A stretch of DNA of 39,781 nt from a virus. The notes below the pieces were generated by a model. It did not search any database. It was not told the origin of the DNA and was given only the letters and a program-made list of their open reading frames with translations. This document shows, in pieces, positions 5,094-14,303 of this stretch (its first letter is position 1; each line of letters starts with the position of its first letter). Both the position numbers and the translations under genes were made by a program. The stretch spans positions 1 through 39,781 of IMG/VR virus record IMGVR_UViG_3300044612_002254, one strand, 5' to 3'.

Positions 5094-5118
5094 AATCACT
5101 CTCCTTTGCTTGTTGGTA
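5091..5118. repeat. 28-bp leader repeat, copy 2
   Basis: Near-identical (27 of 28) to 4655-4682. It carries the ribosome site and start of the gene at 5093. The similarity weakens further upstream, where copy 1 runs into the tRNA acceptor stem. Confidence 0.85.
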
Positions 5119-11962: not shown

Positions 11963-12396
11963 TTGTGGTGGTTCCTTTGGGGTTTTGATTCATAGTCGGG
12001 ATCGAGAAAAAAATCGGTGTAGGCTTTGTAAAGGCCAGACAAAAAGGCTGGTTCCATTTCCTTTCTTTTATCGGGTTCTGTGTAATACAAGTGGCTTTTT
12101 TGGTACACTTCTTTGACTTCGTGTGGTAATTTAATGACATAGTTTATTCCAGTTTCATCACTAAAATGTATTGTAAATGAATTGTAAACAATACTAGGCA
12201 AGGTCCATGTCAAGTGAAATTCAAAACCCCAACAGATTTTAGGATAAAGTGGTTCTCCCGTGCGGCTGTGATAATACAGCGGCAAAAGATTGCAGATCAC
12301 GTCTAGGGTTTCACGTTCTGTCTCAAAAAGATTGCGCTTAAGTTGTGCCTCTAGTTCGCTAAGGCAATGGGTTTTTAAGGGGTTTTCGTCGGTCAT
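11959..12396 (-). CDS. Hypothetical protein (145 aa)
   Basis: It starts MTDENPLKTHCLSELEAQLK after AAGGAAACCAACC. The N-terminal third is helical, the middle strand-rich (WGFEFHLTWTLPSIVYNSFT), the end acidic and basic by turns. No family recognised. It overlaps the XRE gene (ATGA coupling). Confidence 0.7.
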   Translation of the reverse strand: MTDENPLKTHCLSELEAQLKRNLFETERETLDVICNLLPLYYHSRTGEPLYPKICWGFEFHLTWTLPSIVYNSFTIHFSDETGINYVIKLPHEVKEVYQKSHLYYTEPDKRKEMEPAFLSGLYKAYTDFFLDPDYESKPQRNHHK

Positions 12397-12407: not shown

Positions 12408-12788
12408 TTATTCTGGTGAATGATTTGTGATAGGGCCCAAAGTATCCTTATGTTTTTCTAAGACACCCTTTAAATCTTTAAGAAATTCGTTTGTTTTTTT
12501 ATCAATAGGGATTGTAATGGTGCGGGTTTTATCATGCCATGTGAAACGCAAACTACGTTCAGATATGAAAAGTTGACGGCCTTTTAAAAAAAACTGAACA
12601 ACTCGGTTTGGGTGTTTTTCTATGTGATTTTTTAATTTGTGATAGTTATACTCTCTTGATGCTTCTGGGTCTGGAATAAACTCTTCAAAGCACGAAAGGA
12701 ATTTAGAAAATTCTAGCTCGGCTTTTGCTTTTTCCAAGCTGTTTTCCAAGGATTCGATGTTGTCTTCTATGTTTTCGATGTTGGTCAT
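12408..12788 (-). CDS. Hypothetical protein (126 aa), first gene of XRE operon
   Basis: It starts MTNIENIEDNIESLENSLEK at 12788; the longer frame from 12830 would begin inside the promoter. A coiled coil of about 25 residues at the N-terminus is followed by a mixed domain with basic strands (SLRFTWHDKTRTITIPIDKK). No family recognised. The ribosome site is AAAAGGAAACC. Confidence 0.7.
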   Translation of the reverse strand: MTNIENIEDNIESLENSLEKAKAELEFSKFLSCFEEFIPDPEASREYNYHKLKNHIEKHPNRVVQFFLKGRQLFISERSLRFTWHDKTRTITIPIDKKTNEFLKDLKGVLEKHKDTLGPITNHSPE

Positions 12789-12818: not shown

Positions 12819-12847
12819 ACAATACGGCAATAGTTGCAGGATGTCAA
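12819..12847 (-). promoter_or_regulatory. Promoter of XRE operon with GCAATAGTTGC operator
   Basis: Minus-strand TTGACA (12847-12842), 17 bp, TATTGT (12824-12819). The plus-strand dyad GCAATAGTTGC (12827-12837) sits between -35 and -10. The divergent promoter at 13079 has nearly the same 11-mer at the same place. A bound dimer would block polymerase. Confidence 0.8.
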
Positions 12848-13078
12848 GGAAGAAATTGCAGCTTCATTACATTTTTTTTATTTTAGGTTTTTGGGGGATT
12901 TTCTTTCGCCCTCCCTCCATTTTGCCGAGTACGCATTAAAAGATATATAAAATATCAGCAGAATATCATTAAATGACAAGCAATAATCAATACTACACTA
13001 GTCCAGTTTTATATAAAAAGGGCACAATATACAGAGAGATTTTTTTTGAAAAAATGAAAAAAAGATGCAATTTTTTCC
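12848..13078. other. AT-rich intergenic control region, possible origin
   Basis: This stretch of about 230 bp between two divergent strong promoters holds no credible gene. It has runs of T and A and two half-sites of the operator (AATTGCAG near 12854-12861, TGCAATTT near 13066-13073). The non-coding span from 12789 to 13165 is the longest in the genome. AT richness and position would suit a replication origin, but no iteron or DnaA-box array is evident to me. Confidence 0.4.
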
Positions 13079-13107
13079 TTGACAGGCTGCAATAATTGCA
13101 CTATTAT
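13079..13107 (+). promoter_or_regulatory. Strong promoter with GCAATAATTGC operator
   Basis: TTGACA (13079-13084), 17-bp spacer, TATTAT (13102-13107). The dyad GCAATAATTGC (13089-13099) is inside the spacer. It drives the ardC-like gene and probably the genes up to the terminator at 14274. Confidence 0.85.
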
Positions 13108-13165: not shown

Positions 13166-13951
13166 ATGAAACATGACTACGAAACAATACTAAATGAAGC
13201 CTTAGAGAATGAGGGCATCATGAATGAACAATTTACGGCCTTTCACGAATACAGCGTAGGCAATCAATTTATGGCGCGTTGCCAACTCAGAAAATGCGAG
13301 CCAATCAAAACCTTTAAAGGATGGCAAGCCCTAGGGCGCACCGTGAAGAAAGGAGAAAAGGCAATCTCTCTTTTGTATCCGTACATCTTCGCAAAAGACA
13401 AAGAAGACCCAAACGGAGAAAGCGTCACAGTCTTTAAACCGCGCAACCTTTGGTTTGGATTGTCACAAACAGAAGGCAAAGACTACAAACACGAATTGCC
13501 GCCAGAAGTGACTAAGGACCGCCTGAGAAAAATGATGATAAACCTGAACATCACAGGCGAACCCTTCGAACACATGAACGGCAACGTCATGGGATACGCA
13601 ACAGCAAAAAGAACCATTGCCATTAACCCACTGTGCAAGGATCCCTTGCCTGTCCTGTTTCACGAGATAGGGCACGTCCTGTTAGGACATCCTGAAGACA
13701 TACACGAATACAGGGCAACCAGAAACGTATGCGAAGCGGAAGCGGAAAGCGTGTCTTATCTCACCATGGCTTGCCTAGGACTACACACAGAAACAACCAA
13801 AGGGCATTCATCGCGCTATATCAAATCTTGGTTAGAAAACCCCAAAAACGATATGCGCCTGAATAAGGTTTTTAAGGCCGTAGACGACATTTTAAAAGCT
13901 ATGGCACAAGAACCTAAAGAACTACCTCAAACCCTCTTAATCGCAGCCTAA
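13166..13951 (+). CDS. ArdC-like antirestriction protein with zincin domain
   Basis: A protein of 261 residues. The N-terminal half follows the ArdC N-domain (PF08401) pattern, with FKGWQALGRTVKKGEKAISL at about 50-69 and NLWFGLSQT at 94-102; in this family it binds single-stranded DNA. The C-terminal half is a zinc metallopeptidase-like domain with HEIGH at 166-170 and a downstream CEAEAESVSY (189-198) that supplies the third ligand. ArdC proteins protect incoming DNA from restriction. The start is the ATG at 13166 with AAAGGAAACC upstream; the frame is open further upstream but crosses the promoter. It is tightly controlled by the operator-bearing promoter at 13079. Confidence 0.88.
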   Translation: MKHDYETILNEALENEGIMNEQFTAFHEYSVGNQFMARCQLRKCEPIKTFKGWQALGRTVKKGEKAISLLYPYIFAKDKEDPNGESVTVFKPRNLWFGLSQTEGKDYKHELPPEVTKDRLRKMMINLNITGEPFEHMNGNVMGYATAKRTIAINPLCKDPLPVLFHEIGHVLLGHPEDIHEYRATRNVCEAEAESVSYLTMACLGLHTETTKGHSSRYIKSWLENPKNDMRLNKVFKAVDDILKAMAQEPKELPQTLLIAA

Positions 13952-13963
13952 AGGAACACAATC

Positions 13964-14167
13964 ATGATCACTTTAATCATCCTCATCATCAACATGGCAA
14001 ACATCGAGCCACAACAAACAATCCACACGCAAAAATTCACAACAAAAGAACAATGCGAAAGCGTAGGGAAGGAAATTCTCCTGATGGAATATGAACAGCT
14101 ACAAAAACGAGGAGCATTGAACAAAGACAAGAAAAATTATCAGATCAGCTTTAAATGCGTAAAATAG
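13964..14167 (+). CDS. Small exported or membrane-anchored protein (67 aa)
   Basis: It starts MITLIILIINMANIEPQQTI after AAAGGAACACAATC, 12 bp behind the ardC-like gene. The hydrophobic first 11 residues may act as a short signal or anchor, although no positive charge precedes them. Two cysteines, in KEQCESVG and FKCVK, could form a disulfide outside the cytoplasm. Small phage proteins with this F.(T/S)KEQC...FKC pattern are common and uncharacterised. Confidence 0.7.
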   Translation: MITLIILIINMANIEPQQTIHTQKFTTKEQCESVGKEILLMEYEQLQKRGALNKDKKNYQISFKCVK

Positions 14168-14273: not shown

Positions 14274-14303
14274 GCCTTATGCTTTTGCATAGGGCTTTTT
14301 TTT
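14274..14303 (+). terminator. Rho-independent terminator
   Basis: GCCTTATGC (14274-14282), a TTTT loop and GCATAGGGC (14287-14295) form a 9-bp stem with one G-T pair, followed by eight T. It ends the ardC-like transcript, so the terminase and virion genes need a promoter of their own or readthrough. Confidence 0.88.

Follow-up and report, generated by a model that had tools for sequence, protein, structure and literature searches.

The two divergent promoters at positions 12819-13107 of the window, which is the complete stretch of 39,781 bases analysed here and represents an IMG/VR virus record of an uncultured phage, both carry a TGCAA-N3-TTGC(A) site in the spacer between the -35 and -10 elements. 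On comparative sequence grounds, these sites are very probably the operators of a 63-aa XRE protein, which would repress its own operon as well as an ardC-like gene. The sequence-only reading of this DNA had suggested autorepression by the XRE protein together with control of the ardC-like gene. This model is supported by the co-occurrence of operators and XRE genes, by DNA-first and protein-first searches and by a recognition helix resembling that of Aca1.

Protein scans revealed that the window encodes a large terminase, a head-tail connector and an endolysin. In phage and plasmid collections, no close relative of the phage was found, every TerL match being below 60% identity, and the XRE protein gave few and weak matches. 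The left operon is located on the minus strand and starts with a gene for a 126-aa protein (12408..12788), which is replaced by other small genes in relatives, followed by a gene for a 145-aa protein (11959..12396), the gene for the XRE/HTH protein (11771..11962) and more small genes. The domain and PHROG scans assigned no recognised function to the left-operon genes and identified no anti-CRISPR gene. The right operon on the plus strand comprises the ardC-like gene (13166..13951) and a 67-aa gene (13964..14167), which is probably cotranscribed with it. A terminator-like hairpin is present at 14274-14295 and the terminase genes come next. The 261-aa ArdC-like protein contains an ArdcN domain, which scores above the Pfam cut-off (34.4 versus 22.6 bits), as well as a HEIGH metallopeptidase motif, and it matches PHROG 7245 (anti-restriction protein; E = 3.4e-12). 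By its sequence, the protein may have antirestriction activity. Among the ArdC-carrying relatives, strong conservation is also seen for the non-coding stretch at 12895-13058 between both promoters (CCTCCATTTTGCCGAGTACGC and TAGTCCAGTTTT...GGCACAATATA), which lies close to the terminase genes and is perhaps a packaging or replication site.

It had been noticed from the sequence that two similar plus-strand 11-mers occupy the same place in two strong promoters facing apart. A sequence search located GCAATAGTTGC at 12827-12837 and GCAATAATTGC at 13089-13099, exactly where they had been reported, and both begin 10 nt downstream of the first TTGACA base. The promoters are indeed the top two promoter-like sites between 10000 and 16000; both are sigma70-like with 17-bp spacers and both are kept in relatives. 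The promoter of the left operon (12819..12847, minus strand) matches the consensus at 10/12 positions, with TTGACA at 12847-12842 and TATTGT at 12824-12819. The promoter of the ardC-like gene (13079..13107, plus strand) shows 11/12 matches, with TTGACA at 13079-13084 and TATTAT at 13102-13107. The full sites turned out to be 12-13-mers. The left operator, TGCAACTATTGC(C) on the minus strand (12827..12838), is an imperfect palindrome, and the right operator, TGCAATAATTGCA on the plus strand (13088..13100), is a perfect 13-bp palindrome. The half-sites that had been described between the promoters are present as well (AATTGCAG at 12854-12861 and TGCAATTT at 13066-13073). Read in the direction of its promoter, the left one is likewise TGCAATTT (placed at 12853..12860, minus strand), and both start 22 bp before their operators. 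This spacing is kept in XRE-operon promoters, and 21 bp is found in many array-type promoters. The half-site is missing from several promoters, among them the ardC-side promoters of the contigs L054, L055 and L065, and is thus treated as auxiliary. Over about 60 bp, both promoter regions can be aligned with each other, which indicates that they are diverged copies of one module.

The counts in the window alone are not above chance, and the case against chance is comparative. GCAAN3TTGC was found five times versus 2.04 times expected, which is not significant because 7 of 100 shuffles reach five. The 21-bp composite TTGACAN3TGCAAN2ATTGC occurs twice exactly and three times with up to three mismatches, with 1.08 being expected for the latter. 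The further GCAAN3TTGC matches (21755, 22743 and 29578) are not part of any recognisable promoter and appear to be background.

In IMG/VR, a scan with the pattern TTGACA-N3-TGCAAYNATTGC retrieved 42 stretches. A separate search with the XRE protein uncovered 22 contigs, most of which were also in the list from the DNA scan. Promoters were then located by their leader sequences to avoid choosing them by the site itself. All 44 unique promoters obtained in this way contain the site, with 9/9 core bases in 42 and 8/9 in two of them, although these promoters are related by descent and the counts within the group are not independent. The site lies at a constant offset, whereas the adjacent spacer bases vary. 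Wherever a contig of the group includes this region, its XRE-operon promoter contains the site (16/16 unique promoters), as TGCAAGTATTGC in most contigs, as TGCAACTATTGC in the window and L047 and as TGCAAATATTGC in L065. Most contigs have one to three extra promoters with a site at equal offset, usually TGCAAT[A/T]ATTGC. The ardC promoter of L055, which was missed by the exact patterns, carries TGCAGGAATTGCA. TGCAA sites in L009, L027, L029 and L042 have no convincing -10 element and were set aside as likely chance matches. The XRE gene and the operator are found together throughout the phage group, which supports the XRE protein as the probable cognate factor. A phage found by DNA alone (L034) has an XRE gene of 42% identity further along on the same strand.

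The operator promoters are either divergent with ardC, as in the window, L047, L054, L055 and L065, or form co-oriented arrays, for instance in L048, L056 and L057. They precede 21 sequence families of first genes, ardC included, most of which encode proteins without known domains, and ardC is present in only part of the group. In L054, the first gene behind a minus-strand operator promoter at 5107 encodes a protein of 223 aa that weakly resembles sliding clamps of DNA polymerase as well as RusA-annotated PHROGs. The XRE domain is also not always a separate protein. In L057 (6001-6618), L061, L062, L064, L030 and L063 it runs in frame into a pentapeptide-repeat-like C-terminal part, giving 206 aa in total, and in L065 it runs into a different 131-aa protein. 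The operators differ in symmetry: none of the 16 XRE-operon operators but 21 of the 28 accessory operators are perfect palindromes (p = 6e-7, uncorrected for relatedness).

The link between operator and XRE genes was also recovered outside the phage group. A DNA-only scan for the operator plus the -10 element in 84,980 species genomes (257 Gb) yielded six matches versus about 0.2 expected from a uniform-base estimate. In five of the six, an XRE-type HTH gene is located directly downstream. In L069, L070 and L071 this gene encodes an NE0471-type HTH protein, and in L072 and its near-copy L073 it is an XRE-nucleotidyltransferase-like gene preceded by two operators in tandem. The sixth match, L068, has no XRE gene within the 8 kb examined. 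In L072 (3330-4200) and L073, which are Clostridia MAGs, two perfect TGCAA-N3-TTGCA operators are 32 bp apart, one of them in a promoter spacer, and a third half-site lies at the start codon. The same spacer operator also stands before the genes of a group in L069, L070, L071, L008 and L010, which we take to be DUF4160/DUF2442-HTH-like.

For the protein-first search, 299 genomes from a single phylum were searched with the mixed HTH profile A2, and 29 new loci were inspected. Between 700 nt before and 200 nt into the open frame, a site was present for 9/18 homologs in which both Arg29 and Tyr34 are conserved but for 0/11 others (Fisher p = 0.005), and within 300 nt for 7/18 versus 0/11 (p = 0.026). 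These p-values are indicative only because the Arg29/Tyr34 rule was derived from A2 and refined on the same 29 loci, and L097, which is counted among the nine positives, is a doubtful case. The other half of the Arg29/Tyr34 homologs (9/18) have no site. At the protein-first loci, a hexamer starting with TA follows 2 nt after the site in 9/11 cases. The locus of L067, whose XRE homolog shows 45% identity and carries Val instead of Arg29, lacks such a site, a single case that is consistent with the rule.

The AlphaFold2 model of the XRE protein (mean pLDDT 90.6) places Arg29 in helix 3, which spans residues 28-36. Arg29 is invariant in the operator-linked set (alignment A2), and its aligned counterpart in Aca1 is position 44. 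This residue, Arg44, is required by Aca1 to bind DNA. The Aca1 site also has the same spacing as GCAA-N3-TTGC: an Aca1 oligonucleotide contains GGCACAATGTGCC, with the site GCACAATGTGC corresponding to GCAC-N3-GTGC (PMC9410881). For Aca2, R30 on helix 3 has been reported to be necessary for autoregulation (PMC8434428).

According to the model that we favour, a dimer of the XRE protein would place its two recognition helices, each with an Arg29, on the GCAA half-sites and cover the spacer between -35 and -10, thereby blocking RNA polymerase. Because they are near consensus, both promoters should fire directly upon entry of the DNA into a repressor-free cell. ArdC and the proteins encoded first in the left operon would then be made in a burst, until enough XRE protein, the product of the third gene in this operon, has built up to shut both promoters. 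Since the ardC operator is perfect and that of the XRE operon is not, a tighter shut-off of ardC is predicted. As to order and timing, ardC would be shut first and hardest, and the XRE protein would stay at a low, self-limited level. The view of the sequence-only reading that the antirestriction protein is produced immediately on entry and its synthesis then stopped would fit this scheme by analogy to Aca repressors and the plasmid p576. In related phages, the same promoter-operator module would drive a changing set of small genes.

Several other explanations were considered. The operators might be read by a different phage or host regulator, the XRE gene merely adjoining them. Indeed, good operator promoters occur in L012/L024 (one contig), L038 and L068, for which no XRE gene is present in the stretches examined; here, either the repressor is encoded elsewhere or a host or prophage repressor is used. 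However, unrelated genomes and phages repeatedly combine operators with XRE genes, the XRE profile matched no further homolog in the window and none of the other window proteins scanned scored above Pfam's cut-off for another HTH family, which makes this explanation unlikely. We give even less weight to the idea that the shared 11-mer simply reflects the duplication of a promoter and does not act as an operator. The homology of the two promoters and the window counts would agree with it, but across diverged copies the flanking bases change while GCAA and TTGC stay, and the same arrangement is found in unrelated genomes. A functionless duplicate is therefore highly improbable.

The shared operators of the divergent promoters, and the presence of the 434 and P2 repressor folds among the matches, might also point to a CI/Cro-like switch, with the XRE protein as the immunity repressor of a temperate phage and the promoters in lysis-lysogeny control. 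This is improbable given that most relatives have co-oriented promoter arrays before unrelated small genes, that the window proteins scanned included no convincing integrase and that the XRE gene sits behind variable genes in its operon. It is similarly improbable that the left operon is a toxin-antitoxin module showing ordinary autoregulation by an MqsA/HigA-like antitoxin. The HTH part does resemble MqsA (TIGR03830, E = 2.7e-8, below the cut-off), and homologs with the same site lie beside DUF4160/DUF2442-like, nucleotidyltransferase and other toxin-antitoxin-like genes. Yet, the partner genes of the phage XRE gene differ from phage to phage, the searches revealed no toxin domain and separate promoters are controlled by the same operator. 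An assignment of the XRE protein to MqsA was rejected at 33.7 bits versus a cut-off of 61.8, with only the C-terminal HTH part of the profile (positions 65-124 of 127) being matched.

Beyond repression by the XRE protein, we tentatively suggest that the phages may possess an establishment regulon, in which the roughly 100-bp promoter-operator-leader unit would be a movable module for gaining and losing counter-defence genes. Following a burst, a single XRE protein would shut them all off, and operator symmetry would determine the order, with the accessory genes first and the repressor operon last. The small genes behind the operators may thus have a counter-defence role, and if the suggestion is true, they would mostly encode new anti-defence proteins. 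With six matches in 257 Gb when the -10 element is included, the operator in a sigma70-like promoter is specific enough to be used as a search query, and it may provide a DNA handle on candidate counter-defence genes that have no recognisable sequence. Moreover, the pairing of an Arg-containing recognition helix with a GCAx-N3-xTGC site is a testable specificity rule for widespread small XRE proteins.

Among known systems, the toxin-antitoxin-like HTH genes share the site. The NE0471 protein (2AUW), which is of the DUF2442-HTH type, matches profile A2 with E = 3.3e-19, and TGCAA-N3-TTGCA is located just before the -10 element upstream of such genes, as in the phage. Unlike these chromosomal or plasmid-encoded proteins, which have extra domains, the phage protein consists of the HTH alone. 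In the study on pYR4 higBA, the primer MS105 contains TGCAATTATTGCACTATTTT (PMC11429247). HigA2 from V. cholerae differs in that it reads TGTACGC-N5-GCGTACA (PMC11006873).

The phage system would also work like the repression of anti-CRISPR operons by Aca1, Aca2 and Aca10 (PMC9410906; PMC8434428; PMC9410881). In both cases, a small HTH protein with an Arg in helix 3 is encoded behind small variable phage genes, and one inverted repeat lies inside the strong core promoter of its own operon. This is an analogy of function; as to family membership, the matches diverge: Aca1 matches profile A2 (E = 6.7e-7) but the phage-group profile A3 alone with E = 0.084, and the XRE protein reaches 15.5 bits with Pfam Aca2_YdiL, for which the cut-off is 23.8. 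In contrast to Aca operons, the phage XRE operons have no identified anti-CRISPR gene, and the XRE protein is proposed to serve several separate promoters with the same operator, including that of the ardC-like gene.

In its working, the phage system may resemble the establishment regulon of the Bacillus plasmid p576, which comprises Reg and ardC, without being a member of it. On p576, one repressor controls its own promoter plus several copies of a strong promoter, one of them before ardC; the own promoter is less strictly repressed, and only ardC and reg are constant while the other genes vary (PMC8708921). Likewise, the ardC and repressor genes of the phage are each driven from a copy of one strong promoter containing the same operator, and from the difference in operator symmetry the same pattern is predicted, with the repressor's own promoter being less strictly shut. 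Reg is a ribbon-helix-helix protein that uses dual TTATCCC motifs upstream of the -35 element (PMC8708921), whereas the phage repressor candidate has an HTH fold and a different operator. The setting is phage infection rather than plasmid transfer, and ardC occurs in only part of the phage group. In the phage, an ardC-like gene would be linked to an Aca-like autorepressor, and on p576 ardC is linked to an unrelated repressor. The logic of burst and subsequent shut-off therefore seems to have arisen more than once.
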